This document shows positions 23,495 to 42,125 of a stretch of DNA of 64,000 nucleotides, in pieces. Below the pieces are notes generated by a model that saw only the letters and a list, made by a program, of their open reading frames with translations, was not told the origin of the DNA and searched no databases. How positions within the stretch are numbered: position 1 is the first letter of the stretch; every line of letters begins with the position of its first letter. The position numbers were made by a program, and so were the translations under genes. Origin of the DNA: Bacteroidota bacterium (GTDB lineage Bacteria; Bacteroidota; Bacteroidia; Chitinophagales; Chitinophagaceae); NCBI GenBank assembly GCA_013285595.1, contig JABDHF010000006.1, forward strand, positions 1 to 64,000, written 5' to 3'.

Positions 23495-23550
23495 ATAGTA
23501 TGAGATGCTGGCTGGCCAGTTATTTATTGAGATTTTGGCACAATAAGTGG

Positions 23551-23583
23551 CAAATGTAATAAATGATTTACAGCCCCACCAAA
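23551..23583 (-). promoter_or_regulatory. Promoter of the DUF3822-rsmD-coaD operon
   Basis: On the minus strand TTTG (23580-23583) is followed after 21 bp by TACATTTG (23551-23558), matching minus-33/minus-7 elements of Bacteroidota. The leader would be about 50 nt. Confidence 0.5.
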
Positions 23584-24526
23584 TAATGCTTATTTATGAT
23601 TTTTGATATGTCGAAGATGTCGGTTTTGCGTATTAAACCGATAATTACCCGGTTCTATTATCTGGAAAAAATGACCCAAAAATGGAATTGACGTTCAACT
23701 CTCAGCAGCGCAAACTGTTGATTGTCAAGTGATTATTTTTTTGGCATGACATTGGATAAATACAAATAAATGGTTTTAAAAACGCGTTGCAAATTTGATA
23801 GATCATGTGATAAAGCTGCACATTCCTATCTCTTTTATGTGTTTATAAGTATATCATTAACATTATAAAATTAATAATAATATTATAATATAATTTATTT
23901 GTCGATGAATTATTTAAACAAGGCATTTATTAACATCTAAAGAACGAGCTATTTATTTAATAACATATCAATAGTTGTTTTTTATTGAGGATATAAATTA
24001 AATAATTATCATGCGCGTTCTGCATGTATATGGTTAGGTCGGAAAATAATTATTTATTTGTTAATGGAATAATAAAATAAGATAAATTTTGTGCATTTTT
24101 TAGGGTATTATCATTTAAATGAATGATATTTTTTTTATTTATTATTGGTATTCATTGATTTAATCTAAAGTTAATAGTGAAAATTTTATACGAAAAAATG
24201 ATTGGGGCGAAAAAGATTTTTTAAGTTGGATAACAAGCATTTTACATTTTTTTTTTGTTTTGTTGAATCTATTATACTTTCTTTGCAAATATTTTTAAAA
24301 ACAGATAATATAAAACCAGTAGATATACCCGGTTAATGGGAATACTTACCGGGTTAATTTTTTGTTCTCAAGTTGATATACGTGCGTATTAATATTTTAG
24401 AGTTTAATTTGTAAAAATCTATATAAAAATAAGTCGTTTACATTTACGCAGATTCGAAAAAATAATTACAATTCAGAGATAGAATATTTTAATAAACAGG
24501 CCAATTCAAAAATTCAATCAATAACT
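23584..24526. other. AT-rich 0.9 kb region upstream of the giant gene
   Basis: No coding frame on either strand. It is dominated by A/T runs, more so than other gaps here. A degenerate promoter may lie at 24254-24285: TTTG, 17 bp, then TATACTTTCTTTG. That would give a leader of over 200 nt for the giant gene. A second near-match, TACATTTA, is at 24439-24446. The length suggests room for regulator binding or leader control, but no clear operator symmetry was seen. Confidence 0.45.
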
Positions 24527-27500
24527 ATGAAGTACGCTACACACATTCAACCACCTGCTACCGGATTAACGGGTAAACAGACGCAGGCCCAAACAGGCTT
24601 GAGATCTTTGCACGTATACATGAAAGCTGCATGCCTGTTCGTGGTACTGGGCGCTATGTCGCTTACAAAGAGCTACGCGGCGTTTGTAGGTGTAATTTCT
24701 ACACCTACTACGGTAGCTCCGGCGAATGCTTGCCAGGGTAATACCAATATTCTTATTTACCAGTTTTCGGTAAATAACAGTGGTAGCTCACTTGGTGCAC
24801 TTTCCGGGTTTTCATTTACACAAGGTGGAAGCGCAGGGTCTAGCGACATTATAACGTATAAGCTATGGTCCGGATCCGTGGGCGGCACGCTAGTAGCAAC
24901 AGTAACTGCTACGTCAACTACACTGACTGGCACCAGCGCTATAGCTTCAGGTGCGACGGTTAATTATTTTGTTACAGCTGACATTGCAACTGGCGCAACG
25001 CCGGGACACACGATCACAGTAAGCCCGATCGCAGCAACGAATGTCATATTCCTCTCCGGTACTAAATCCCTAAGTGGCACAGCGGCCACTGGTGGGCTGC
25101 AGACAATAATAGCCGGTGCGACCTTTACAGGCGTGTCTTCGTTATGTGCAGGATCAACTATTACATTAACTCCGTCAGCAACAGGTGGGGTTTGGGCAAC
25201 CGGTACAACCTCTGTAGCAACAGTAGCTGGCGGTATAGTAGGTGGTGTTGTGGCTGGTACTTCTTCAATAAGCTATACGTTAAGCGGTTGTACCTATACA
25301 CAGGTAGAGACCGTAAGTAATGTTACAACGCCATCAGTTACCATGGTACAGTCTCCTGCAGGCGCCGTATGCGCAGGCACAAATACTCGCTTTACGCCTA
25401 ATGTTACAAATGGTGGCGCGCCTTCTTACCAGTGGTATGTGAATAGTGCTTTGGTAAGTACAGTAACCAACTACCAAACCAATACATATAACAATGGCGA
25501 CCTGGTTTATGTCGTTGTGACTTCCAGCCTTCCCTGCTCATCTCCAACAACAGCTACCTCTGCCACAGCAACAGTTACCGTAAACCCAACGCCTGCTATC
25601 ACAGCAGGCCCTACTACAGTATGTGTGGGTGGAACGATAACTTTGAATGCTACTCCTAGCGGTGGTACGTGGTCGAGCAGCAACACAAGGGCCACTGTGG
25701 GATTGTCATCTGGTATTGTAACCGGCGTATCATCTACAGGCACATCCCCAAACATAACTTATACATTAGCTGGCTGTACAGATAACCAAACTATTACAGT
25801 AAGCAATTCCTCTACTCCACATGCTAATATTAATGCGATCAGTGGTACAACAGTTTGTTCAGGGGCTACTGCAAATTTTTCTGCAAGCTCTACGGGTACT
25901 ACCGGCGCTACTTACCGGTGGATAGTAAACTCAACGCTTGCTAATACAGGAACAACCTTTTCAAGCAGTACCCTGGCAAACGGGGATGTGGTAAAGGTAG
26001 TGGTAACAACGACCGCTGCATGCGCAACAACGCCAACAGATACCGCAACGGTAACCATGATAGTAAATCCGTCACCGTCTTTAACTACCTCGTTTACTAC
26101 AGGCTGTACTGGCTTACCGGATACATTCATTGCCGCCCCAACTGGCGGCGTATGGGCTTCGGGTAATACCACCGTGGCTACTATAGGCACAACTGGCATT
26201 ATGCTGGGGATCGCCGCAGGCACATCAACCATAAGCTATACAGTTGCCGGTTGCTCTGCTACATCTAATATTACTGTAGGCCTTACACCTCCTGCGTTTA
26301 CTATCACCCCTTCGTCTGCTGCTGTTTGTGCAGGAAGTGTGTTATCTGTTAGCGCCCCGGCAATAACTGCAACAAATGTTACTCCACCTGCTTTTCCTTC
26401 TACCGGGGCATTTACGGTACCAGATAATATACCCGCAGGTATTACCAATGCCATTGCGGTAAGCGGTATACCTGGCGATGCCACTATAGCGGATGTGTCT
26501 GTGGTCCTGAACAGCATTACCATGCCATTTGACCGCGATCTGGAAATCAATATAGGAGCGCCAAATGGTGTTATCTTAAACTTAGTGAACAGAAGAGGGG
26601 CCAACTTCGGCGCAGTGGCTGACTTCACAAACACAGTTATCAGCTCATTAGGAGGTTCTGCTTTCTCAGGTGGCACAGCGCCGTTTACCGGTACTTTTGC
26701 TGCAGATGTTGCAAGCGGCAGGGGACCATCGGGCTTCCAGCCTACTGCAAACACATGGCCTCCTTTGTTTACCATACCAAATGGTAACTGGACATTAGGG
26801 ATCCATGATAATGGGTCGGGTGACGTAGCAACCGTGAATAACTGGTCTGTCATCATACATTACACCACGCCGGCAGGCTCTTACACATGGTCGTCTACAA
26901 CGGCTCTGTATACCACCAGCGGCTTATCTACATTATATACAGGTGGCCCGGCCAATGCCGTATATGCAAGCCCGGCAACTGCCGCAACTTATACTGCTAT
27001 AAAAACAGAAACAGGATCAGCCTGCTCATCTACGAGCAATGTAACCGTATCTGTAAACGCAGCTCCATCAATAGTTGCAACAGCAACTCCAAACCCTGTA
27101 TGCGTTGGCACTACAGTTACTTTAAATGCTACTGCATCAGGCGGCGGCGGCACCTTCCCTACCTACTCATGGGCTGGCCCGGGTACATTTACAGCAACAA
27201 CAGCAAGCACTACCGATGCAGGCATAACTGCGGCTGGTACAAATGTGTATAGCGTTTCCGTAACAGATAATAACGGATGTACAGGGTCTACTTCTGTATC
27301 AGTGACTGTGGGCGCGGCGCCATCAATAACCGCAACGCTTACCCCAACACCAATATGCGCAGGACGTACCCTGACTTTAAATGCTACACCAGCAGGTGGC
27401 AGCGGCACTTATCCTGTTTATTCATGGTCTGGCCCTAACGGTTTTACAGCGACTACAAAAATTGCAACTAACCCGGCAATGACCTTGCTTGGAGCTGGTG

Positions 27501-30500
27501 TATACAGTGTTACCGTAACAGATGGTAACGGATGTACTTCACCGATAGCGGTGACAACTGCAGTTTCGGTAAACCCAATGCCAACAATTACAGCAACCGT
27601 GACACCAACTGTATTATGTGCAGGCGGTACTTTAAATCTTAGTGCGACACCAGCAGGTGGCAGTGGTACTTATACATTATATTCATGGACCGGCCCTTCC
27701 GGCTTTACCTCGTCTATCCGAAATACATCTGCTGCCAGCGTTACAGCGAGCGGCGTATATAGTGTAAGTGTGACTGATGATAACGGTTGCCGGTCTTTAA
27801 GAGCAACAACGGCATTTGTAACCGTTAATCCTTTACCAGTAATAACAGCAACAGCAACACCAACTGCTGTATGCGCCGGCAGCACACTATCGCTGAGCGC
27901 AACAGCTACCGGTGGCAGCACAGTTTATAATACATTTACATGGAGTGGCCCTGTGAGCGTTACCTCTACCAGCCAGAATGCAAGCGTTACGGGCATTACA
28001 AGCGCAGGTGCGGGCACATATAGTGTTACAGTTACAGATAACAATGGCTGTACCTCTGCAACAGGAACGACGGCAGCAGTAAGTGTAAACGCTCTGCCAG
28101 TAGTAACAGCATCAGTAACTCCAAACCCATTGTGTGCGGGCGCTACACTTTCATTAAATGCATCGGCGACTGGCGGTAGCGGCAGCTATCCTACCTTTAA
28201 CTGGAGCGGGCCGGGAAGTTTCTCTACCACCGGACAAAGTGCAACCCGCCCAGGTGTTACTGTGGGTGGTATATATAGCGTAACGGTAACGGACAATAAT
28301 GGTTGTACGTCTCCTGTAGTCAGTTCTGCAACTGTTACAGTAAATCCATTGCCTGTAATAACTGCAACTGCTACGCCTACCGCTATCTGTGCAGGCAGCA
28401 CGCTTTCGCTTAATGCAACTCCATCGGGTGGCAGCACAGTTTATTCATCTTATTCATGGTCTGGCCCTAACCTTTTCACAGCCACTACACAAAATGCTAC
28501 TAATGCAGGTATCACTAGCGCAGGCGCAGGAACATACAGCGTAACGGTTACCGACAATAATGGTTGTACGTCAGCGATCGGCAGCACATTGCCTGTTACG
28601 GTAAGCCCGTTGCCAAACGTTACCGATTTTAGCATGCCATCGGCAACTTCAGGTTGTATCGGGGTGTCGTCAACGGTAACGGTTAACTCATCAAGCCTTG
28701 GCGCAGGAACTTTCAATGTTATTTATGACCTTACGGGTGCAAACACAGTAACGGCTCATACCGCATCACTTGTTATAGCGTCAGGTACAGGTTCATTTAC
28801 TATACCTTCAACAGACCTTACCGGTTCTGGTGCTACAACAGTAACTGTTACGGCCGTTGCCGGTGGCGGAGGTTGCAACAGCACATTGTCTGCAGGTAAT
28901 ACAGCAAACTTTGCTATTAACCCTATGCCGGCATCTATTACTGGTGTATCCAGCGTTTGCCTTTTGGGTACTACTACTTTAAATGACGCCAGCACAGGCG
29001 GTAACTGGACAAGCGCTAACACGGCTCTGGCAAGTGTTGGCCTTACAAGTGGTATCGTTACTGGCGCCGCAGTAGGTTCTACTACTGTCACCTATACGCT
29101 CCCTACGGGATGTGCTACTGCAATTCCTGTTCTTGTTAATCCAATTCCCAATATCTACACCGTAACCGGTGGTGGCAACTATTGTTCTAACAATCCTAAC
29201 GCGCATGTTGGCTTATCTGGATCAGATCTGGGTGCTAGCTATCAGTTGTACTTAAACGTTTCTGCGGGCCCTGCCCCTATAGGAGGCCTGGTAACAGGAA
29301 CTGGAGGCTTACTCGACTTTGGCGTTGAACTGTCAAATGGCGTCTATTCAGTAATTGCTAACCCAAGCGCAACATGTGCTGTAGGAATGACAGGTACGGT
29401 GGAGATTACGGAATTTGTATCTCCAGTTGCATTTGCGGTAATAGGCGGCGGCGCATATTGTAATGGCGGTACCGGCGTAACAATTGGCCTTGCCAACTCA
29501 CAAAGCGGGGTTTCTTACCAGTTATTTAATGGCGGCGCAAGTGGCTCACCTATAACAGGCTCAGGCCCGGCAATATCATTTGGCCTCAGAACAGCTGCGG
29601 GTACTTACACTGTAGTTGCTACAAATACTATCAGCTCTTGTACCAGCAGTATGACCGGCAGCGCTACTGTAACTATCAATCCGGTGCCACCTTCAATAAC
29701 AGGTAACCCACAGGTTTGTACAGGCCTTACTACAACACTGAGCGACGCACTGACAGGCGGTACCTGGAGCAGCAGCTCATTATTAGCTACTGTAGACCCA
29801 TCGACCGGTGTTGTTACAGGTTTTCTTGCCAGCACACCTACTATTACTTATACAGTAGCCAACTGTACCGCTATAAAGCAGATAACGGTTAATACTTCTC
29901 CTGCATCTATCACCGGTAGCCTGGTTGGTTGCGCAGGTTCAACACTTTCTTTAAACGACGCCACAACAGGCGGCGCATGGAGCAGCAGCAGCACAGGTGT
30001 TGCTACTGTTAACGGTGGCTCTGTTACCGCAGTTACTGCTGGTAATACAAATATCTCTTATTCCCTGCCTACCGGTTGTTCGTCAACAGTGACGGTAACA
30101 ATAAATTCACAGCCATCTCCTATCGGCGGTGCAACAATACTTTGTGCTGGCCTGCCTTCTTCTTTAACCAATGTTATTACCGGCGGTACATGGAGCAGCA
30201 GCAATACCTTTATTGCTTCGGTTAATCCATCAACCGGCAGCGTTTTAGGATCAGGTTTAGGCACAGCTAACATTACATACACGCTTCCCGGCGGATGCTC
30301 ATCTAACACTCCGGTACTGGTTAATCCATCAGGATTGATCAGTGGCCCAGGCGCAGTTTGCCCGGGTTCGACGATCACTTTAACTAACACCACTACAGGT
30401 GGTGCATGGACAAGCGGTTCTACCGCTACTGCTACAGTAGGTGGCAGCTCTGGTATAGTATCTGGTGTAGCCGCAGGTGTAGTTACGATCACTTATACCA

Positions 30501-33500
30501 CGCTTACAGGTTGTACATCTCCGGTCTTCACGGTAACAGTTAATTCACTCCCTGCTCTTAAAACAGTAACAGGCGGTGGTAGCTATTGCCTGGGCGGCGC
30601 AGGCACGCATATCGGGCTTGGCAGTTCAGATGCCGGAGTTACTTACCAATTATTTAACGGCGCAACTGCAGTAAGCGCAGCCCTGGCCGGCACAGGGTCG
30701 GGTCTCGACTTTGGCCTGGTAACGGCTGCAGGTACTTTTACTGTGGTGGCTACTAATACCACTACTGGCTGCACAAGAACAATGACCGGCAGCGCTGCTA
30801 TAAGCATAAATCCATTACCATCTGCATTTATTGTAAGTGGCGGTGGCAGCTATTGCTCGGGCACTACGGGCGTACACGTTATGCTTAGCAGCTCAACTGC
30901 AGGCGTTGGCTACCAGTTATACGACGGATCCGTTCCAATGGGTATCTCTGTAATTGGCACAGGGTTGTCAATTGATTTCGGTACACAAACTGCCGGCGGC
31001 AGTTACGGAGTAGTCGCTACTAACCCAGTTACAAGCTGTTTCAGCGTTATGTCTGGCAGTGCATTTGTCAACGTACTTCCTTTACCTGCTGCTTATGCAG
31101 TAACAGGTGGTGGCAGCTATTGCGCAGGCGACGCGGGCGTACACGTATTCCTTACCTCGTCTGCAATAGGGACTGATTACCAGTTGTTTAATGGTGTTGT
31201 GCCTGTTGGCGCTCCTGTTCACGGCACAAGTGCAGCCATCGACTTCGGTTCACTTACAGCTGCAGGCACTTATACCGTATCTGGTACTAACCTGGCTAGT
31301 GGCTGCACTGGCCCTATGTCTGGCAGCGCTTTAATCACAATTAATCCATTACCTACTGCTAATACCGTAACTGGTGGCGGCGGATATTGCTTCGGCACAG
31401 CGTCAACTCTTCCGGTTGGCCTGAACGGTTCTATCGTAGGTAATTCTTACCAGTTATTATTTACAGGTGCTCCGCTCGGTTCTCCGCAGCTGGGTACAGG
31501 TACTTCACTTAATTTCGGTGTGCAGTCAAATGCTGGCACTTACACAGTTCGCGCTACTACTATAGCCACTGGTTGTAACGCCATCATGGGTGGAAATGCT
31601 GTAATAGCGATCAATTCATTACCTGCAGTCTTTGCAGTAACGGGTGGCGGCAATTATTGCCCTGGTACTTCCAGCGTTCACGTTGGCCTGGCAGGTTCTG
31701 CTATCGGTGTAAATTACCAGTTGTATAGTGCTAGCTCACCAACAGGTTCAGCAGTTCCTGGCACGGGCGTTGCACTTGACTTCGGTGCATTTGCAGCGGG
31801 TTCATACAATGTTGTCGCTACAAGCGGCGTAGGTTGTACCAATAGCATGAGCGGCAGTGCATCTATTATACTTAATGCTGTACCTGCATCATTTACGGTT
31901 AGCGGTGGCGGTTCTTATTGCTCAGGCAGCACAGCGCCTCACGTTTTACTGGGTGGTTCAGTATTTGGTACTACTTACCAACTGCTCAACGGAGCTACAA
32001 TAGCAAGTTCACTGGCAGGTACTGGCGCTTCTCTCGATTTCGGAGCCCAGACTATTGCAGGTACCTATACTGTTAAGGCCACCAACGCTACTACAGGCTG
32101 TACTGCTACTATGACCAGCAGCGCTACAATAACTATTAATTCCCTGCCTACAGCTACATTTACTGTAACAGGCGGTGGCAGCTATTGTGCAGGTGGTACA
32201 GGTAAAATAGTAGGCCTGAGTGGCTCTCAGTCAGGTATCAGCTACCAGTTATTTGCTAACGGTATAGCTTCCGGATCTCCAATTACAGGTTCCGGCCCGG
32301 CGGTTAACTTCCCATTGCAAACTACTGTTGGTTCTTACACCGTTGTAGGTACCAGCGGCTCATCATGCAGCAGCAATATGACTGGTAGTGTTTCTATAAC
32401 AACCACTCCGGTACCTGTTGTTTATAATGTAACTGGTGGCGGCGGTTATTGCTCAGGCACTACTACAGGTGTTCACATAGGCCTTGCGTCTTCTAACTCC
32501 GGCATCAACTACCAGCTGTTCTTAGGCACTACCGCTGCGGTAGGTGCACCTGTTGCAGGTGTTGGCGCTGCTCTTGATTTTGGCGCGCAAACGGCAGTAG
32601 GCACATACACTATTATAGCTACAAATACAACCACATCATGCACAAACAGCATGTTTGGCAATGCGGTTGTATCTACCAGCTTACCACCTGCAGTTTATAC
32701 ATTATCGGGTGGTGGCAGCTATTGCGCAGGTGGCGCAGGCCTTCCATTGTCTATCAACAATTCAGATGCAGGCGTGAGCTACCAGTTGTTACGTGGTGGT
32801 GTTCCGGCAGGCAGCCCGTTGGGTGGTACCGGCACTACGCTTAGCTTTGGCAACCAGGCAATAGCAGGCAGCTACGCAGTAGTGGCAACAAATGTTACTA
32901 CTACATGTACCAGCAATATGGCCGGTGTAGCCACTATCGCCACAACGCCATTACCTGCAGTATTTGCAGTTAGCAGCGATGCAGCTACTTATTGCGCTGG
33001 CGGTGCTGGTGTACATGTAAGGCTTGGCGGTTCTGCTACAGGCTTCTCTTATCAATTATATAATGCAGCAGCTACTGTAGGCAGTCCTGTTGCGGGTACT
33101 GGCGCAGCGCTTGATTTCGGTGCACAGACCACAGGTGTTTATACAATTGTTGCTACAAATAATACTACGTCTTGTACTAACCAGATGGCGGGTACAATAG
33201 TAATAACTACAACTCCATTGCCAGCTGCGTTCAACATAACAGGCAGTGGCAATTATTGCGCAGGTGGCGCAGGGTTAAATATTGGCCTTAGCGGTTCAGC
33301 TACAGGCATCAGCTACCAGCTGTCAAATGGATCATCTGTTGGTACACCAATTACAGGTACTGGTGCAGCTATTAACTTTGGCATGCAGACAGCAGGTACT
33401 TATACAGTGATCGCATCAAATATTACAACTGGCTGCACCCAAACAATGACTGGTGCTGCAACAATTGGTATCAATGCACTGCCGGTTGCACAAACACTTA

Positions 33501-36500
33501 ATGGTGGCGGCAACTATTGTGCGGGTGGTACTGGTGTCGATGTTTCATTAGCAGCTTCTAATACAGGTATTACTTACCAGTTGTATAACGGCACTGCTCC
33601 GGTAGGCGCTTTGATGCCAGGCACTGGGGCTGCTATCGACTTTGGTTTGGAAACAATAGCTGGCCACTATGCAGTGGTAGCAACAACTACAGCAACAGGC
33701 TGTACCAACCGGATGGCAGATACAGTAACAGTAGGCATCTCTCCACTGCCAAATGTATATAGCGTAACTGGTGGTGGTAACTACTGCCCTTCAGGTACAG
33801 GTGTGGTTACTGGCTTAAGTGGCTCTGACATGGGTGTTAACTACCAGTTGTACAACGGTGTTGTTGCAACAGGTACACCGGTTGCAGGTACTGGCTCCGC
33901 AATTACTTTCGGATCACAGGTGGGTGTAGGTAATTATACAGTAATAGCTGTTAGTGCTACTACGCCATGCACAAGCAATATGTCTGGCAGCGCTACAGTA
34001 GGGCTTAACACTCTGCCAATAGCGTACAACGTAACAGGTGGTGGCGATTATTGTGCTGGTGGTACAGGCCTTCACATTGGCCTCGACCAAACCGATGCTG
34101 GTACTGCTTACCAGTTATACAATGGTATTACCCCGGTAGGCGCAGCGTTTGCAGGTACAGGTTTTGCAATAGACTTTGGTCTGCAAACAGCTTTAGGTAC
34201 GTATACCGTAATGGCTGCAAATACAGCTACAACATGTACGAGCGTTATGGCCGGAAGCACTCCAATAGCAATTGACGCACTGCCAGCCGTTCACCCGATC
34301 ACTGGTGGTGGTAACTACTGCGTAGGCACAGGCGGCATGCATATCAGCTTGTTAGCTTCCGATGGTGGCATCAGCTACCAGTTATACAATGGTACGCTTG
34401 CGGTAGGTTCGCCTATTATGGGTACTGGCTCTTCTATTGACTTCGGTGCACAAACAACTCCGGGTACATATACAATTGCAGGTACAAACACAACTACTAC
34501 ATGTAGCAGCAATATGTCTGGCAGCACTACTATCAGCATCAATACTCCACCAACTGCTTTCTCAGTAACTGGTGGTGGTAACTATTGCGCTGGCAGCGTT
34601 CCAGCAGTGCATGTTGGCTTAAATGGGTCTACTGCTGGTATCTCTTACCAGTTATACAATGGCGCTCCGGTAGGTACGGCATTCGCCGGTACTGGTTCTT
34701 CAATAGACTTCGGTGTGCAATCTGCAACGGGTACTTATACTATTATAGCTACTAATACTACTACATCATGCACTACCGCAATGTCTGGTAGCGCTAACGT
34801 GGGTGTCAATGTAGTGCCTGCTGCGTTTACAGTTGGCAGCAGCGCAAGCCAGTATTGCGCAGGTGGTACAGGTGTTAGCTTGTCCCTTAGCAATTCCCAG
34901 GCTGGTGTTAATTACCAGTTATATGCCAATACTGTTCCATCTGGTATTGCAGTTGCAGGTACGGGCCTCGGCCTTAGCTTCGGCTTGCAGACATCAAGCG
35001 GCACTTATGCCGTTATAGCTACAAACGCAACAACAGGTTGTGTAAGTAATATGGCTGGCAGCGCAGTAATTACTATAAGCGCTCTGCCTACTGTGTATGC
35101 AGTAGTGGGCGGTGGTAACTATTGCTCAGGCGCTGATGGTGTACATGTTGGCTTATCAAGCTCTCATGTGGGTACGCTTTATCAGCTGTACAACGGTGTA
35201 ACACCTGTAGGCAGTGTATCTGCAGGTACAGGTTTCGCGCTCGATTTCGGTGCCCAAACAATTGCAGGCACTTATAGTATAGTAGCTAACAATCCGGCTA
35301 CAAGCTGCGTAAGCACAATGGGCGGTGTTGCTACGGTGGGTGTTAATTCTCTTCCTGTTCCGTTTACAGTTACAGGTGGTGGCAACTATTGCGCTGCTGG
35401 CACAGGTGTAAATGTAGGCTTGTCTGGTTCTACTGCAGGTGTTTCTTACCAGTTGAGCAATGGTACAACAGGCATAGGTGCGCCGGTAGCCGGTACGGGA
35501 TCATCGATCGGTTTCGGTACGCAAACAGGTGCTGGTTCGTATACAGTTGTGGCTACAAATACAGCAACGGGTTGTGTTAATAACATGACGGGCTCTGCTC
35601 CGGTTGCTACTATCGCATTACCTTCTGCTTATAGCCTCACGGGCGGTGGCAATTACTGCTTAGGTGGCACAGGCCTTCACGTAGGTATGCTTAATTCAGA
35701 TGCAGGTACCAGCTACCAGTTATTTAATGGTACAGGTGCAGCAAGCGCTGCGATACCAGGTACAGGCGTTGCAGTTGATTTCGGAACATACACAACAGCA
35801 GGCAGCTACACCGTAGTAGCTACTAATACAACCACCGGTTGTACTGCTGCAATGCCTGGCGCTGCTGTAATAGTGATAAACACCCCTCCTGCTGCTTATA
35901 CAGTAACTGGTGGCGGCAACTATTGTGCAGGTGGCTTAGGTGTTCACGTAAGCCTCAGCAACTCAACTGCTGGTACCACATATCAGTTGCTCAACGGTAC
36001 CCTTGCTGCCGGCGCTCCGGCTCCAGGCACTGGTATCACTGTCGACTTCGGTTTGCAGTCAGCGCCAGGTACTTACTCAGTTGTAGCTGTAAATCCTGTT
36101 ACAGGCTGTACCGCTACTATGGCGGGTAGTGCATCGGTAACGGTTAGCCCTGTTGTTGCCCCTGCGGTCTCTATTTCAACAGGCGACGATACGGTATGCG
36201 CCGGCACAACAATTACTATTAATTCAGTTACATCAAATGCAGGTACAACTCCTGCTTATACATGGACAGTGAATGGTCTACCACTTGCTGAAACTTCAGG
36301 CGCTCTTACTTACGCACCTGCAGTAGGTGACGTGGTTGGCCTTACAGTGATGAGCAGCGCTGCATGTGCTACGCCATCATCTGCAAGCGCTATGATACCT
36401 GTAAATGTATTGTCACACGGTATGCCGGCAATGACTATTACTTCAAGCCTCGGAGATGTGGTATGCCAGGGTGCTGCGGTTACCTTCACAGCTGTAACCA

Positions 36501-37240
36501 GCTATGGTGGCTCTGCTCCTTCTTATACATGGTTGGTGAACGGTGCTAGTCACGGTACAGGTACTACTTTAACCTACACTCCTGCAAATGGTGATGTGGT
36601 TTACGGCATCCTCAACAGTAACTACCAGTGCCGCCTCGCAACATCTGTAACCAGCAACCATGCTAATATGGAAGTTGATGTTCCGGCTACTCCAGTGGTT
36701 TCTATTGCTGCAAATCCAGGCACAAGCGTTAAGCCGGGCCAGGTTGTATTGTTAACTTCATTTATTGCCAATACAATTAATACACCTACTTACCAGTGGT
36801 TGTTGAATGGCCAGCCTATCGCAGGCGCTACCAGCTCATCTTACGTAGTTACTGTATTCTCTGATGCCGACTCTTTCACCTGCGTGGTGACTAGCGGCGG
36901 CGGATGCGGTGGCTTGCAAGGAGCTAAGTCTGTAGTAATGCACACAAGCGAAGGTGTACAGCAGGTAGCTACAACAGGCAGCGACGTGAAGCTTGTTCCT
37001 AACCCGAACAAGGGCATCTTTACAGTGAAAGGCTCGCTTGGTACTACTAGCGACGAACAAGTAACTGTAGAAGTTACAGACATGCTTGGCCAGGTTATCT
37101 ACAAAGAAAATGTTATGGCTCATGGCGGAATGATAGATCAGAAGGTGCAGCTTAGCAACACACTTGCTAACGGTATGTACATACTGAATCTGCGTTCTTC
37201 AAGCGCTAACGACGTATTCCACGTAGTGATCGAACAATAA
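24527..37240 (+). CDS. Giant modular T9SS-exported surface protein, 4237 residues
   Basis: An exported protein with an extended signal peptide (hydrophobic LFVVLGAMSL at about 36-46, cleavage near SYA-A at 51). Residues about 52-195 form a beta domain like those in other Bacteroidota adhesins. Ig/PKD-like units of the CAGxTLTL...GGTWSSS type follow. About 620-780 is a proprotein-convertase P-like domain (PFDRDLEINIGAPNG, NWTLGIHDN). About 840-1360 holds Ig-like units with YSWSGPxGFTATTQ and VTVTDNNGCTS. Two copies of an about 89-residue module (VTGGGNYC...YQLYNG...GTYTVVATN...GC) precede four more Ig-like units, then 21 uninterrupted module copies occupy about 2009-3868. Three Ig-like units end in a T9SS type A C-terminal signal (LVPNPNKGIFTVKG, about 4150-4237). 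It should be cell-surface or secreted. No catalytic site is evident. The ATG at 24527 is the first; 24620 is a possible alternative. Confidence 0.9.
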   Translation: MKYATHIQPPATGLTGKQTQAQTGLRSLHVYMKAACLFVVLGAMSLTKSYAAFVGVISTPTTVAPANACQGNTNILIYQFSVNNSGSSLGALSGFSFTQGGSAGSSDIITYKLWSGSVGGTLVATVTATSTTLTGTSAIASGATVNYFVTADIATGATPGHTITVSPIAATNVIFLSGTKSLSGTAATGGLQTIIAGATFTGVSSLCAGSTITLTPSATGGVWATGTTSVATVAGGIVGGVVAGTSSISYTLSGCTYTQVETVSNVTTPSVTMVQSPAGAVCAGTNTRFTPNVTNGGAPSYQWYVNSALVSTVTNYQTNTYNNGDLVYVVVTSSLPCSSPTTATSATATVTVNPTPAITAGPTTVCVGGTITLNATPSGGTWSSSNTRATVGLSSGIVTGVSSTGTSPNITYTLAGCTDNQTITVSNSSTPHANINAISGTTVCSGATANFSASSTGTTGATYRWIVNSTLANTGTTFSSSTLANGDVVKVVVTTTAACATTPTDTATVTMIVNPSPSLTTSFTTGCTGLPDTFIAAPTGGVWASGNTTVATIGTTGIMLGIAAGTSTISYTVAGCSATSNITVGLTPPAFTITPSSAAVCAGSVLSVSAPAITATNVTPPAFPSTGAFTVPDNIPAGITNAIAVSGIPGDATIADVSVVLNSITMPFDRDLEINIGAPNGVILNLVNRRGANFGAVADFTNTVISSLGGSAFSGGTAPFTGTFAADVASGRGPSGFQPTANTWPPLFTIPNGNWTLGIHDNGSGDVATVNNWSVIIHYTTPAGSYTWSSTTALYTTSGLSTLYTGGPANAVYASPATAATYTAIKTETGSACSSTSNVTVSVNAAPSIVATATPNPVCVGTTVTLNATASGGGGTFPTYSWAGPGTFTATTASTTDAGITAAGTNVYSVSVTDNNGCTGSTSVSVTVGAAPSITATLTPTPICAGRTLTLNATPAGGSGTYPVYSWSGPNGFTATTKIATNPAMTLLGAGVYSVTVTDGNGCTSPIAVTTAVSVNPMPTITATVTPTVLCAGGTLNLSATPAGGSGTYTLYSWTGPSGFTSSIRNTSAASVTASGVYSVSVTDDNGCRSLRATTAFVTVNPLPVITATATPTAVCAGSTLSLSATATGGSTVYNTFTWSGPVSVTSTSQNASVTGITSAGAGTYSVTVTDNNGCTSATGTTAAVSVNALPVVTASVTPNPLCAGATLSLNASATGGSGSYPTFNWSGPGSFSTTGQSATRPGVTVGGIYSVTVTDNNGCTSPVVSSATVTVNPLPVITATATPTAICAGSTLSLNATPSGGSTVYSSYSWSGPNLFTATTQNATNAGITSAGAGTYSVTVTDNNGCTSAIGSTLPVTVSPLPNVTDFSMPSATSGCIGVSSTVTVNSSSLGAGTFNVIYDLTGANTVTAHTASLVIASGTGSFTIPSTDLTGSGATTVTVTAVAGGGGCNSTLSAGNTANFAINPMPASITGVSSVCLLGTTTLNDASTGGNWTSANTALASVGLTSGIVTGAAVGSTTVTYTLPTGCATAIPVLVNPIPNIYTVTGGGNYCSNNPNAHVGLSGSDLGASYQLYLNVSAGPAPIGGLVTGTGGLLDFGVELSNGVYSVIANPSATCAVGMTGTVEITEFVSPVAFAVIGGGAYCNGGTGVTIGLANSQSGVSYQLFNGGASGSPITGSGPAISFGLRTAAGTYTVVATNTISSCTSSMTGSATVTINPVPPSITGNPQVCTGLTTTLSDALTGGTWSSSSLLATVDPSTGVVTGFLASTPTITYTVANCTAIKQITVNTSPASITGSLVGCAGSTLSLNDATTGGAWSSSSTGVATVNGGSVTAVTAGNTNISYSLPTGCSSTVTVTINSQPSPIGGATILCAGLPSSLTNVITGGTWSSSNTFIASVNPSTGSVLGSGLGTANITYTLPGGCSSNTPVLVNPSGLISGPGAVCPGSTITLTNTTTGGAWTSGSTATATVGGSSGIVSGVAAGVVTITYTTLTGCTSPVFTVTVNSLPALKTVTGGGSYCLGGAGTHIGLGSSDAGVTYQLFNGATAVSAALAGTGSGLDFGLVTAAGTFTVVATNTTTGCTRTMTGSAAISINPLPSAFIVSGGGSYCSGTTGVHVMLSSSTAGVGYQLYDGSVPMGISVIGTGLSIDFGTQTAGGSYGVVATNPVTSCFSVMSGSAFVNVLPLPAAYAVTGGGSYCAGDAGVHVFLTSSAIGTDYQLFNGVVPVGAPVHGTSAAIDFGSLTAAGTYTVSGTNLASGCTGPMSGSALITINPLPTANTVTGGGGYCFGTASTLPVGLNGSIVGNSYQLLFTGAPLGSPQLGTGTSLNFGVQSNAGTYTVRATTIATGCNAIMGGNAVIAINSLPAVFAVTGGGNYCPGTSSVHVGLAGSAIGVNYQLYSASSPTGSAVPGTGVALDFGAFAAGSYNVVATSGVGCTNSMSGSASIILNAVPASFTVSGGGSYCSGSTAPHVLLGGSVFGTTYQLLNGATIASSLAGTGASLDFGAQTIAGTYTVKATNATTGCTATMTSSATITINSLPTATFTVTGGGSYCAGGTGKIVGLSGSQSGISYQLFANGIASGSPITGSGPAVNFPLQTTVGSYTVVGTSGSSCSSNMTGSVSITTTPVPVVYNVTGGGGYCSGTTTGVHIGLASSNSGINYQLFLGTTAAVGAPVAGVGAALDFGAQTAVGTYTIIATNTTTSCTNSMFGNAVVSTSLPPAVYTLSGGGSYCAGGAGLPLSINNSDAGVSYQLLRGGVPAGSPLGGTGTTLSFGNQAIAGSYAVVATNVTTTCTSNMAGVATIATTPLPAVFAVSSDAATYCAGGAGVHVRLGGSATGFSYQLYNAAATVGSPVAGTGAALDFGAQTTGVYTIVATNNTTSCTNQMAGTIVITTTPLPAAFNITGSGNYCAGGAGLNIGLSGSATGISYQLSNGSSVGTPITGTGAAINFGMQTAGTYTVIASNITTGCTQTMTGAATIGINALPVAQTLNGGGNYCAGGTGVDVSLAASNTGITYQLYNGTAPVGALMPGTGAAIDFGLETIAGHYAVVATTTATGCTNRMADTVTVGISPLPNVYSVTGGGNYCPSGTGVVTGLSGSDMGVNYQLYNGVVATGTPVAGTGSAITFGSQVGVGNYTVIAVSATTPCTSNMSGSATVGLNTLPIAYNVTGGGDYCAGGTGLHIGLDQTDAGTAYQLYNGITPVGAAFAGTGFAIDFGLQTALGTYTVMAANTATTCTSVMAGSTPIAIDALPAVHPITGGGNYCVGTGGMHISLLASDGGISYQLYNGTLAVGSPIMGTGSSIDFGAQTTPGTYTIAGTNTTTTCSSNMSGSTTISINTPPTAFSVTGGGNYCAGSVPAVHVGLNGSTAGISYQLYNGAPVGTAFAGTGSSIDFGVQSATGTYTIIATNTTTSCTTAMSGSANVGVNVVPAAFTVGSSASQYCAGGTGVSLSLSNSQAGVNYQLYANTVPSGIAVAGTGLGLSFGLQTSSGTYAVIATNATTGCVSNMAGSAVITISALPTVYAVVGGGNYCSGADGVHVGLSSSHVGTLYQLYNGVTPVGSVSAGTGFALDFGAQTIAGTYSIVANNPATSCVSTMGGVATVGVNSLPVPFTVTGGGNYCAAGTGVNVGLSGSTAGVSYQLSNGTTGIGAPVAGTGSSIGFGTQTGAGSYTVVATNTATGCVNNMTGSAPVATIALPSAYSLTGGGNYCLGGTGLHVGMLNSDAGTSYQLFNGTGAASAAIPGTGVAVDFGTYTTAGSYTVVATNTTTGCTAAMPGAAVIVINTPPAAYTVTGGGNYCAGGLGVHVSLSNSTAGTTYQLLNGTLAAGAPAPGTGITVDFGLQSAPGTYSVVAVNPVTGCTATMAGSASVTVSPVVAPAVSISTGDDTVCAGTTITINSVTSNAGTTPAYTWTVNGLPLAETSGALTYAPAVGDVVGLTVMSSAACATPSSASAMIPVNVLSHGMPAMTITSSLGDVVCQGAAVTFTAVTSYGGSAPSYTWLVNGASHGTGTTLTYTPANGDVVYGILNSNYQCRLATSVTSNHANMEVDVPATPVVSIAANPGTSVKPGQVVLLTSFIANTINTPTYQWLLNGQPIAGATSSSYVVTVFSDADSFTCVVTSGGGCGGLQGAKSVVMHTSEGVQQVATTGSDVKLVPNPNKGIFTVKGSLGTTSDEQVTVEVTDMLGQVIYKENVMAHGGMIDQKVQLSNTLANGMYILNLRSSSANDVFHVVIEQ
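29157..36140 (+). repeat. 23 copies of an about 267 bp protein module
   Basis: Each module spells a GGGNYC-type start, YQL, a G-T-G turn, DFG, a TYTV strand and a GC near the end; two cysteines per copy suggest one disulfide each. The run of 21 copies begins near 30553 with a step of about 267 bp (89 residues). Two further copies start near 29157 and 29440. DNA identity between copies is visibly lower than protein identity, since synonymous codons vary (GGCGGTGGC, GGTGGTGGT, GGTGGCGGC). Confidence 0.85.
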
Positions 37241-37320: not shown

Positions 37321-38358
37321 TTACCCCGCTATATATTTGCCATACGGCAATTTACTGATCACCCACACGATCAATAAAGAAATAGCTAAACAAATAATAC
37401 TCGTTAGCGGTACTCCGATTATCGGGTTAAAAAGAAATCCGTTGATCTTAAAATAATCCAGGCTACCCAATACCAGGATATGGATCAAATAAATACCATA
37501 GCTGTATTGAGAAACTATCCTCGTGATTTTCGAAAATAAGCCTCCGGTACCCATCTTCATATTTTTAAAGAGCAAAAACATCCCAATACCAGCCACCACA
37601 ATATTTGGCGATAAGAGGTTGTAATAAAAGCTATCCGAATCGCCGGCCTGTAAGCTTACATAGTAAGTGCCCACTATAGTGGTCAATGTTCCGCCGGCAA
37701 GCAGGCAGAGCCCAATTTTTACAGCCTGGCTTTCCTTTATTTGTATTCCCGATAAATAATAGCCAAGTATTACATAACCTAGATACCCGGAAAAATAAGA
37801 AAGGTCAATTTTAGTACTGAGGCCCGATAACGGCTTTATGTTCTTAATTATAGTAAGAGCCCATATAGCCAGAAAGAACATGATCTCTTGTTTTGTACTG
37901 TTTAGTATCCATTTATTGATTATGGGGATGACCAGGTAAATGCCGATGAGCATATACATATACCATAAATGTGGAGATACGCCATTAACCAGTCTATCAA
38001 ATATCCAATGCACTGTTTCGCCAAATGTTTGAGACGAGCTATAGTTATTGGTATATAACAGGTAAATAATGCTCCAGAACAAAAATGGAGATAGCAGCCT
38101 TACAAACCTTTTTTTGATAAAAACCCCTAACGGAATATTTTTTCCCAGTAACAACGTACCTGTTATCATCAGGAAAACAGGCACGGCAAAACGAGCCGAT
38201 GAGTCGTAAATATTGCCGATCCACCAGGTTTTGAGTGTTCCTGGCGATTTATCAAATTTTCCCAAAAGGTGATATGCAACATGTGCAACAATTACCGCCA
38301 GGGTTGCTAATGCCCGGAGGTTATCCATCCAGGTTATTCTCTCATTATTATTTTGCAT
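37321..38358 (-). CDS. Acyltransferase family 3 membrane protein
   Basis: A 345-residue integral membrane protein of the acyltransferase 3 (OafA/WecH-like) group. The start MDNLRALATLAVIVAHVAYHL carries the family arginine and histidine, then RFAVPVFLMITGTLLLG, FIKKRFVRLLSPFLFWS, and about seven more helices. Such enzymes O-acylate sugars at the cell surface. It has no soluble extension. It is divergent from the MATE gene, sharing about 150 bp in which GCCCTAAAAGGGC forms a short palindrome near 38370. It is not close to the other acyltransferase in sequence. The giant-gene terminator lies beyond its 3-prime end. Confidence 0.85.
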   Translation of the reverse strand: MQNNNERITWMDNLRALATLAVIVAHVAYHLLGKFDKSPGTLKTWWIGNIYDSSARFAVPVFLMITGTLLLGKNIPLGVFIKKRFVRLLSPFLFWSIIYLLYTNNYSSSQTFGETVHWIFDRLVNGVSPHLWYMYMLIGIYLVIPIINKWILNSTKQEIMFFLAIWALTIIKNIKPLSGLSTKIDLSYFSGYLGYVILGYYLSGIQIKESQAVKIGLCLLAGGTLTTIVGTYYVSLQAGDSDSFYYNLLSPNIVVAGIGMFLLFKNMKMGTGGLFSKITRIVSQYSYGIYLIHILVLGSLDYFKINGFLFNPIIGVPLTSIICLAISLLIVWVISKLPYGKYIAG

Positions 38359-40360: not shown

Positions 40361-42022
40361 TTAATTCATTTGATAACGCCCCAGCCATATAGTAGAGCGG
40401 CCATCGCTGCCCACATAGATCATCGCTTTTTCCTTATCCAGCCATAAGTAAGGTGCTATGCTCCTTAGTGTATAGTTGTGATCTCCTATTTCCGAATACT
40501 CTGTGATCTTACTATTGGCAATGTCAAATTTCAATACTGCCGGATAGTACTCTGCATTATAATAAACACTGCCGCCCGATTTATATTCATTGCTTTCGTT
40601 TTCCAGTAGTTGCAGGTAAGCAGTGGTGCCGTCGTCGCTTATAATAAGCTTTTGCTTGATAGGGAACACCGTATTCTTATCAGATTTTAGTGATGCAGGC
40701 ACTATGCTGTATTGGGTTTTTATAACACCTTGCTTATTCACCTGGAAGCACATCATATCTTCATAAGCTTTCCATTCAGTGCCACTCAGCTTTGTCCTTG
40801 AATTGATCTGTCCTGTTATCAGGAAATCCCCGTTTGGCAACTGCTCAAAGATCTCTATGTTAAGGAAACGGCCATCATAAGCATATCCTTTTTTCTGCCC
40901 TGGAGGCACCTGCAGTTTATTTTCCAGTTCACTGATCTCATTTTTGCTTATCCATTCTACTTTGCCATTATTTATTTTTATGATAGAAAATACATCCACT
41001 TTTTTCCTTTCCAGGTCTTTATGATAGGCTTCCATGCGCTTATTGGGTTCTCCTGATGATGCGGAGTACGAAGGGTTCACCAGGTAGATCACCTCTCCAT
41101 AAAGCTTTTCAAAGCTCTCATCGGCATCGCTGTTATATGCCGCAGTAAAGTACACTGCCCCGTCTTTCGTTTTCATGTGGCTCGATATCGTCATGTTAGC
41201 AGATGGCGCATCTATCTCAAAACGCTCCTTCACCTTGCCATTATTATCAAAACGGATATAGGTATACTTCTTTTGGTCAGGCATCGGGTCTGCTTTCTTC
41301 GGCGCAAATATGAATATCATGTCTGAGTTCTCCAGGTTGTCATCGCCATCGCTTATACCATTATTCACAAGCCCGGAATAAACAAGCCCTTGAGCAGATT
41401 TGAATTCAATTGGTGTTTCTTCCATCGACATGTCAGACCGTTTAATGTGCAGCAGCGATACTTTGCGGCGCTCATGGTCTTTTTCAGACATCCCCAGCAT
41501 GTAAAGGTCGCCCGTGTTATTATTGGTATAAGCCGCGTACCCTGTATAGTACTTTTCATCTTCATTTTTCAGGTTCACCTCATCTCCTTCTTCATAGTGA
41601 TACCGGTATATACCTTTATCCGCGTCCCACTTGTAGATAAGCTTGCCCGACGACAGGTGCAGCTTCAGGCTTTCTACAGAAAGCCGCTTACCGTTTCCCA
41701 GTTGTGCCATCACAATATCATGCACTTTATCAGGCCTCACTTCATCTTTTGATTCCAGTATGCTCTCGTCTTTCAAAAAAGCTATGTCCCTGTCAAACAC
41801 GTACTTTTTATACTCACGTACATCATCATTTTTATCTCCTTTCAGATGATACATGACTTCTATATTGCCAGTCTCTATATTTAGCTCCGCACCATGAAAC
41901 GTGCCCTTGGCGGCCTCTTTGGGCAGGTCTTGCTTTGTTTCTTTTATCTGTGCGGATATTGGCGCTCCCGATGCCAGGAGCAATATTGAGCACAAAACCG
42001 AAAGTGTAGTTGTCTTTTTCAT
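40361..42022 (-). CDS. Hypothetical secreted protein, 553 residues
   Basis: I do not recognise a family. The N terminus is a signal peptide (about 1-24, MKKTTTLSVL...ISAQ). The body is rich in beta-strand character with recurring motifs such as YKWDADKGIYRYHY, AVYFTAAYNSDADE and TAYLQLLENESNE, consistent with a beta-propeller. No catalytic motif or membrane segment is evident, and no T9SS signal was found at its end (WLGRYQMN). The ATG at 42022 is preferred over a TTG six bases upstream. It follows the LuxR-type regulator on the same strand by 103 bp and may be in its operon or under its control. A strong terminator follows. Confidence 0.6.
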   Translation of the reverse strand: MKKTTTLSVLCSILLLASGAPISAQIKETKQDLPKEAAKGTFHGAELNIETGNIEVMYHLKGDKNDDVREYKKYVFDRDIAFLKDESILESKDEVRPDKVHDIVMAQLGNGKRLSVESLKLHLSSGKLIYKWDADKGIYRYHYEEGDEVNLKNEDEKYYTGYAAYTNNNTGDLYMLGMSEKDHERRKVSLLHIKRSDMSMEETPIEFKSAQGLVYSGLVNNGISDGDDNLENSDMIFIFAPKKADPMPDQKKYTYIRFDNNGKVKERFEIDAPSANMTISSHMKTKDGAVYFTAAYNSDADESFEKLYGEVIYLVNPSYSASSGEPNKRMEAYHKDLERKKVDVFSIIKINNGKVEWISKNEISELENKLQVPPGQKKGYAYDGRFLNIEIFEQLPNGDFLITGQINSRTKLSGTEWKAYEDMMCFQVNKQGVIKTQYSIVPASLKSDKNTVFPIKQKLIISDDGTTAYLQLLENESNEYKSGGSVYYNAEYYPAVLKFDIANSKITEYSEIGDHNYTLRSIAPYLWLDKEKAMIYVGSDGRSTIWLGRYQMN

Positions 42023-42125
42023 AAACAAGTTTTTTTGTGAGGGAAATTCCTGTCACAATACTACTTGCAAATGAATGGGCGTTAATTACACTTTAGTGTT
42101 GTTTTCGGCGCGGGCGAAAGTGCGG

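Follow-up and report, generated by a model that had tools for sequence, protein, structure and literature searches.

The first 64,000 nucleotides of contig JABDHF010000006.1 (assembly GCA_013285595.1, a freshwater Bacteroidota bacterium of the Chitinophagaceae; this whole stretch is called the window below) carry an open reading frame (ORF) with an ATG start at 24527..37240 on the forward strand, and its product is a giant surface protein of 4237 residues bearing a signal of the type IX secretion system (T9SS). We propose that this protein is secreted by T9SS and anchored to the cell surface as a stalk or fibre of fixed length with an N-terminal binding head, and we give this reading a probability of roughly 0.7. 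The repeated domain is known in kind; the new part is a family-level pattern of diverged, ordered arrays that mostly keep their module number, together with a missing oxidase.

Modules and sorting signal of the giant protein

The giant protein has 2 + 21 modules of about 89 residues with two cysteines apiece, and both cysteines were invariant columns in the 23-row module alignment. When its single modules were compared with the module profile, E-values down to 7.5e-38 were obtained, the profile having been built from those same modules. The initial annotation had described a T9SS protein of this length with these modules, and the description was borne out by the open frame, by the alignment and by the C-terminal matches to Por_Secre_tail (30.7 bits, cut-off 27) and TIGR04183 (26.9 bits, cut-off 23). 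The sorting domain is thus of type A; the type B domain (CHU_C or TIGR04131), which we take to be the label of the SprB-type gliding adhesin, was not among the Pfam and NCBIfam matches at E <=10. SprA_N was matched in the own genome with an E-value of 2.6e-152 (G000:C11) and was found in 34 of the 35 genomes of the genus, the presence of T9SS being judged by sprA alone. Ten of these 35 genomes lie outside the set with a completeness of 90% or more and a contamination of 5% or less. At the other end of the protein, Met32 may be the true start, as it opens a signal-like hydrophobic stretch that was spotted by eye.

The register of the array is common to other genes and species

A catalogue of 67 arrays with at least ten modules each, 1,399 modules altogether, was compiled from the giant protein and loci L041-L112 and L167-L186; loci L001-L040 and L113-L166, arrays shorter than ten, any run of an ORF other than its longest, and a duplicate array (the second ORF of L085) were left out. 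The named-genome scan contributed 72 loci from Bacteroidota records, including Flavipsychrobacter and Taibaiella (best 80 of 225). With these natural arrays, it becomes testable whether stalk length is selected.

Alignment at the C-terminal ends gave the best register for the giant protein in 16 of the 28 arrays of 20 or 21 modules, compared with a mean of 1.16 and a maximum of 6 in 500 order shuffles. The result was 15 of 28 after the outer two modules at each end had been removed (shuffles: mean 1.55, maximum 9), and 17 when all 50 complete arrays of at least 12 modules were considered (mean 2.0, maximum 8). In the pooled comparison with the giant protein, the best offset was 0 for all five other 21-module arrays and +1 for all 23 of the 20-module arrays (0 of 1000 shuffles in each case). 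The thirteen 20-module arrays that cluster among themselves also took offset +1 (0 of 1000 shuffles), while two small groups gave p 0.024, at the different register of offset 10, and p 0.083 at +1. Singly, the 21-module arrays L097, L099 and L104 fitted offset 0, with 0, 5 and 13 of 1000 shuffles doing as well. In 117 of the 253 pairs formed among the 20-module arrays themselves, offset 0 came out ahead of each of the 19 circular shifts, where 1 in 20 was expected. Since this register is common to arrays of other genes and species, the alignments are taken to show that they all go back to a single array of some 20-21 modules and that its module order has been kept. A "2 ... 20" architecture was seen in six proteins (L063, L077, L084, L101, L109 and L112).

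Module number is mostly kept

Both ends were seen in 53 arrays, of which 23 had 20 modules, six had 21 (the giant protein included) and six had 12; 43 of the 53 stopped 361-370 residues before the C-terminus. The 23 arrays of 20 modules come from 8 genomes, as counted from record titles, and the peak at 20 is partly due to sampling and shared descent. The 363-residue tail of the giant protein, sorting domain included, was matched at E <=1e-8 in 94 ORFs of the fetched loci, some of which overlap, and the best six tails were 50-51% identical. Among 14 reciprocal best pairs defined by this tail, the counts were equal in 10 and differed by one in 2; among 13 pairs defined by the 400 residues before the array, 11 were equal, one differed by one and one stood at 34 versus 10. 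Many of these pairs share members and are not independent, and a random pair among the 53 arrays would be equal with a chance of 0.21. In the 23 pairs picked by register, 17 counts were equal, 3 differed by one and 3 by more, an ungapped register itself favouring equal counts.

Some individual arrays have to be read with care. The count of 36 for L076 should read 35, its first unit being another immunoglobulin (Ig) type. The frame of L045 ends inside the array. This locus lacks a tail, and the 52 tails compared do not include it. L064 holds an array of at least 58 modules that is cut at both ends.

The module copies are old and constrained

The mean identity over the 253 pairs of the 23 modules was 0.497 for amino acids and 0.567 for nucleotides. 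The statement in the initial annotation that the DNA copies differ more than the protein copies is therefore literally wrong; however, it holds as it was meant, the mean proportion of synonymous differences (pS) being 0.672 and that of nonsynonymous differences (pN) 0.342, with pN below pS in all 253 pairs. Random synonymous codons would give a pS of 0.711, so the observed value is near saturation, and adjacent copies were barely closer than copies more than seven apart (pS 0.637 versus 0.670). In nine array pairs, the ratio of nonsynonymous to synonymous rates (dN/dS) at matching positions was 0.05-0.17, dS values above about 1 being rough. With pS nearly saturated, pN half of pS and neighbours hardly closer, the copies are old and constrained, in agreement with the earlier idea of old repeats under protein-level selection.

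High DNA identity between copies, the sign of a recent expansion, was looked for as well and was not seen in the giant protein, where the mean was 0.567 and the maximum 0.67; the longest exact repeat of the gene is 23 bp. Nor did the 67 arrays contain any pair of modules from the same array with a nucleotide identity above 85% (best 0.83, median of the maxima 0.66), and a recent tandem expansion was rejected. The further suggestion that the divergence might serve to avoid recombination as a selected trait did not stand up: codon identity at identical residues was 0.452 against 0.397 expected, that is, codons were slightly more alike than random draws, and therefore age alone explains the divergence.

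The module belongs to a known Ig-like family

The initial annotation had named a match of the module to a well-described domain family as a ground against its reading, and a family match was indeed found. The whole protein matched Pfam Ig_7 (PF19081), a model independent of the module profile, with an E-value of 3.4e-39 and 133.5 bits (cut-off 27.3) in 25 stretches, so that the modules are no product of chance. Taken singly, 10 of the 23 modules matched at E <=0.01 and 13 did not. To judge from these profile matches, the module of the YQL/GTG/DFG type seems to form a divergent Ig_7 subgroup. Ig_7 is named "Ig-like domain CHU_C associated", but CHU_C itself is absent from the Pfam matches of the giant protein. 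No description of the function of the family was found in the literature searched on Ig_7.

A model of three modules, built from 71 sequences, was all beta and Ig-like, with a mean predicted local distance difference test (pLDDT) of 97.3 and a predicted template modelling score (pTM) of 0.82. A new domain fold was rejected on account of the Ig_7 match and this modelled Ig-like fold. The first-ranked Foldseek match of the model was a fragment of GhpA from Aureispira (E 1.6e-8, template modelling (TM) score 0.66 by query length), and the top six matches in VIA-align were six GhpA entries, with Z 10.5-11.5, a root-mean-square deviation (rmsd) of 3.2-4.6 and 232-236 of 268 residues aligned; the best of them reached Z 11.5 with an rmsd of 3.4 over 234 residues. 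Titin I67-I69 came next (Z 10.1, rmsd 6.2), and as VIA-align rows within 1 in Z count as tied, the lead of GhpA over titin is small. The lower rmsd over three domains suggests that the modelled chain would have a domain-to-domain arrangement similar to that of GhpA. When the module alignment was used as a profile against solved structures, a single match at chance level (E 1.2) came up.

With phmmer, the whole protein matched GhpA in 11 stretches with an E-value of 7e-241, which is inflated by repeats and biased composition. The best of these stretches, residues 827-1424 (127 bits), is of another Ig-like type and not the 23-copy module. The N-terminal part matched GhpA weakly (E 0.0011), and the 363-residue tail gave no match at E <=1 in the sequence comparison. 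For the other Ig-like repeat type, at residues 1018-1361, likeness was also seen to two PDB entries: 9ncf, an Ig-like domain protein (E 9.8e-22), and 9c2d, a tail protein (E 3e-14).

A P-domain cassette forms the candidate head

A part resembling a P-domain had been pointed out in the initial annotation, and it was confirmed by Pfam P_proprotein (E 2.5e-6) and backed by the modelled fold. In the model of residues 586-930 (14 sequences), model residues 33-198 matched the P-domains of Kex2 and furin with Z 12.4 and an rmsd of 2.5 over 128 aligned residues; over its full extent, the model matched Ig domains of GhpA (Z 9.2, rmsd 3.5, 153 aligned). An Ig-like domain interrupted by the P-domain would be expected to give this combination. 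The cassette was found in 22 of the 35 genomes of the genus, the own genome included; it was rejected as an orthologue marker, as the best match elsewhere was only 52% identical.

Cysteines along the chain and the missing oxidase

Both cysteines were present in 1387 of the 1399 modules. The 12 exceptions were inspected by eye: ten are cut by the end of a contig, locus or frame, the first unit of L076 is of the different Ig type mentioned above, and the first unit of L172 has apparently undergone a real loss of the second cysteine. This conservation and the Ig-like fold of the model support the idea of an extended stalk made up of two-cysteine domains in a chain. The cysteine-pair modules of the initial annotation do carry two cysteines in each copy, but cysteine pairs also occur outside these 23 modules. 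By their spacing, the 90 cysteines of the giant protein fall into 43 domain-internal pairs along nearly the whole chain, with Cys36, Cys69, Cys4119 and Cys4127 standing outside. We infer one disulfide-type pairing for each Ig-like domain, and on the same spacing the 23-copy module is one of several two-cysteine domain types in the protein.

MauE-family membrane proteins were found in all 35 genomes of the genus, and MauE possibly serves disulfide formation. The results for DsbB and VKOR, given below with the points that weigh against our reading, leave a puzzle: a genome with at least 140 conserved cysteine-pair modules in a genus in most of whose genomes neither known disulfide-generating oxidase was found.

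Proposed mechanism

According to the mechanism that we propose, the giant protein would enter the periplasm by Sec and fold there, and it would then cross the outer membrane by T9SS, lose its sorting domain and become attached to the surface at its C-terminal end. The 363-residue tail and the 21-module array would make a stalk of about 80 nm and the whole protein would measure about 160 nm, holding the N-terminal Ig domains and the P-domain cassette off the cell to bind a surface, a polymer or another cell. For scale, another filament, of 49 DUF11 domains, is about 180 nm long as stated in an excerpt of PMC13319060. The resulting 3.7 nm or so per domain would give about 77 nm for 21 modules and about 158 nm for 43 domains, a rough estimate as DUF11 is another domain. 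The order of the modules would be kept because the copies are too diverged in DNA to recombine readily, with each position and the length of the stalk under selection.

Points against the fixed-length stalk and alternative explanations

Several results weigh against this reading. The remaining two tail-defined pairs had 26 versus 15 and 37 versus 35 modules, and two near-complete genomes that were searched whole held arrays of about 37 and 33, and of 35 and 24, modules. The six "2+20" arrays, when pooled, had no register with the giant protein (p 0.25), and singly L102 took offset 0 without significance (307 of 1000 shuffles) and L078 did not fit (758 of 1000). The loci are a biased sample, being the best 80 of 225 by likeness to four modules of the giant protein; short-read assemblies break at near-identical repeats, so that recent expansions would be under-seen; and even where a genome consisted of about ten contigs, arrays were cut at contig starts. 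The model of the candidate head reached a pLDDT of 70.9, which is only moderate. DsbB was found in none of the 35 genomes of the genus and VKOR was matched in only one, with positive controls for both. Apart from these points, the two genomes searched whole also hold arrays that are short or cut, along with numerous single modules, and the "2+20" arrays showed no clear register with the group of thirteen 20-module arrays either (p 0.039).

The order and number of modules could also persist by inertia, with an old duplication that stopped recombining, no function for length, and domains kept for the sake of folding. We regard this as possible, but would not bet on it. The copies are indeed too diverged to recombine readily, the codons carry no signal of active avoidance, and conserved order is predicted by inertia too. 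Single-module losses would still be possible, however, and yet several pairs at an estimated dS of 0.73 to about 2 are equal (35/35, 25/25 and several 20/20); moreover, the six "2+20" arrays have 20 modules without a detectable shared register, for which inertia needs coincidence or decay of the signal. An adhesin of the Periscope type, which would alter how far its head reaches by varying the number of its repeats, is highly improbable. As described in an excerpt of PMC8201768, Periscope Proteins resemble the giant protein in that tandem folded domains project a terminal head, and an N-terminal head and a C-terminal anchor are present here as well. But their repeats are highly identical in DNA and vary in number, and their length changes fast, whereas the copies here are diverged, without any module pair above 85% nucleotide identity within an array in the 67 arrays or, in the giant gene, an exact repeat beyond 23 bp, and the number is mostly kept, with equal counts in 10 of the 14 tail-defined pairs (from different species, not strains). 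In keeping both order and, mostly, number, the family appears to be the opposite of Periscope stalks.

The giant protein could instead be a protomer like that of the grappling hook formed by GhpA, spanning a full oligomeric filament that catches prey or other cells; identical protomers lying side by side would then demand equal length and position-specific modules, with which the frozen register of the arrays fits. The background on GhpA is taken from excerpts of PMC11205867, PMC13319060 and PMC12421860 and from the titles of PDB entries. According to them, GhpA of Aureispira sp. CCB-QB1 is likewise giant, built of tandem Ig-like modules and secreted by T9SS (PMC11205867), but it has 5,898 residues (PMC13319060) against 4237 here, and the heptamer and the hook are features of GhpA, the giant protein being known from sequence and models. 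GhpA fragments are the best solved structural matches of the module chain (Foldseek E 1.6e-8; VIA-align Z 11.5), the 11 phmmer stretches (E 7e-241, inflated) point the same way, and sprA is present together with TssC of the type VI secretion system (T6SS) in the own genome; T6SS acts in the predation of Aureispira after attachment of the hooks (excerpt of PMC11205867). Against this, the likeness is that of a common Ig module with about 20% identity in the structure alignments, titin I67-I69 (Z 10.1) lies within 1.5 of GhpA, and the C-terminal tail has no GhpA match. The parts also do not travel together, TssC occurring in 5 of the 35 genomes of the genus and modules in all 18 mates searched. 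We therefore consider a hook protomer of this kind unlikely. TssC (PF17541) itself lies at G000:C57:4055-5341 and was also found in 4 of the 34 genus mates.

A bolder form of the same thought, which we hold to be very doubtful, is that the giant proteins would be the full-length protomers of fixed-length oligomeric fibres, a class resembling the grappling hooks throughout a freshwater genus, in which a count near 20 would have been reached more than once and the disulfides would be made without DsbB or VKOR, for example by MauE-like proteins. The family also ties Ig_7, a little-described Pfam domain, to the solved giant T9SS surface filament GhpA. The giant protein has features in common with the fibrillar adhesin-like proteins of Bacteroidetes as given in an excerpt of PMC8286594, namely a stalk of repeated domains and a Por_Secre_tail anchor; those proteins carry adhesive domains, from a list of 27 that was not compared one by one, whereas only the P-domain turned up here. 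Among the matches listed in literature searches on giant Ig-like T9SS proteins and on disulfides in Bacteroidetes, none concerned this protein family.

Features of the gene and composition of the chain

The coordinates of the parts are collected in Table 1. The four short domains that lie between the module pair and the array are 47-63% identical to the best four paralogues outside their own gene.

Table 1. Positions in the window of the giant gene, its parts and the adjoining gene
Feature	Coordinates	Strand	Basis and remarks
Giant T9SS surface protein gene	24527..37240	+	Open frame; purifying selection on the modules as a family
Signal-like hydrophobic stretch, aa 32-50	24620..24676	+	Translation judged by eye
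Five N-terminal Ig/PKD-like two-cysteine domains (Cys 207/255, 282/337, 366/417, 444/499, 527/576)	25124..26254	+	Cysteine positions; Pfam PKD_3 at 280-324
Ig-like domain whose two cysteines (Cys601/Cys833) enclose a furin-type P-domain; candidate binding head	26312..27043	+	Pfam P_proprotein; model
Eight more two-cysteine Ig-like domains, Cys 859 to 1529; type nearest to GhpA by sequence	27089..29140	+	Cysteines; phmmer
Upstream module pair, m01 (aa 1539-1630) and m02 (aa 1631-1719)	29141..29683	+	Module alignment
Four short two-cysteine Ig-like domains between pair and array, Cys 1731 to 1996	29684..30544	+	Cysteines
Unbroken array of 21 modules, m03-m23, aa 2007-3874	30545..36148	+	Module alignment; register common to other arrays
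C-terminal base, Ig-like domains from array to sorting domain	36149..36997	+	Tail matches
T9SS type A C-terminal sorting domain, aa 4158-4237	36998..37237	+	Por_Secre_tail (Pfam), TIGR04183 (NCBIfam)
Acyltransferase gene adjoining the giant gene	37321..38358	-	Pfam Acyl_transf_3

A stretch of 973 residues (aa 3063-4035, at 33713-36631) is without any lysine or arginine. Lysine makes up 0.3% and arginine 0.5% of residues 51-4150, and 45% of the 1,399 modules have neither. Trypsin-like proteases would meet almost no site in this stretch, and tryptic proteomics would miss the stalk.

Distribution, genomic site and neighbouring genes

Of the 34 genus mates in the set, 18 were searched with the module profile; every one of them had matches, from 5 to at least 150, and the own genome, which is 59.6% complete, had 140. 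Among the genomes of other genera in the order, 2 of 11 matched, with 2 and 7 modules. The own genome also holds a paralogue (L176, G000 contig 15, 3-5534, reverse strand). It is collinear with the giant protein over residues 855-1953, the two parts compared being 56-63% identical, and is cut off by the contig end a little ahead of the point where the array would start.

In the stretches fetched beside DUF3822 in 34 relatives, several of them only 3-8 kb long, no ORF contained a module. MatE lies directly beside DUF3822 in 16 of the 34, and only there is the absence of the giant gene firm; on these stretches a true orthologue at the same place was rejected. At E 1e-20 the adjoining acyltransferase was found in the own genome only (1 of 35), the 34 other genomes of the genus being without a match. 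Since the giant gene was not seen at this site and the acyltransferase was without a match in the relatives, the two genes look like a lineage-specific insertion or relocation, judging from these comparisons. The G+C content of the acyltransferase gene is 0.388, versus 0.491 for the giant gene.

When 20 ORFs of the window were compared with Pfam, nothing tied to the function of the giant gene stood out; a 555-residue ORF at 40361-42028 on the reverse strand had no Pfam match at E 0.001. The tRNA scan of the window gave none, and the promoter scan, with 14 promoter-like sites against 8.9 expected (standard deviation 3.0), was uninformative. The 1 kb directly upstream of the giant gene (23495-24526) is very rich in A+T, with a G+C content of 0.256 compared with 0.444 in the window outside the gene, and it is possibly a long leader or an insertion scar.

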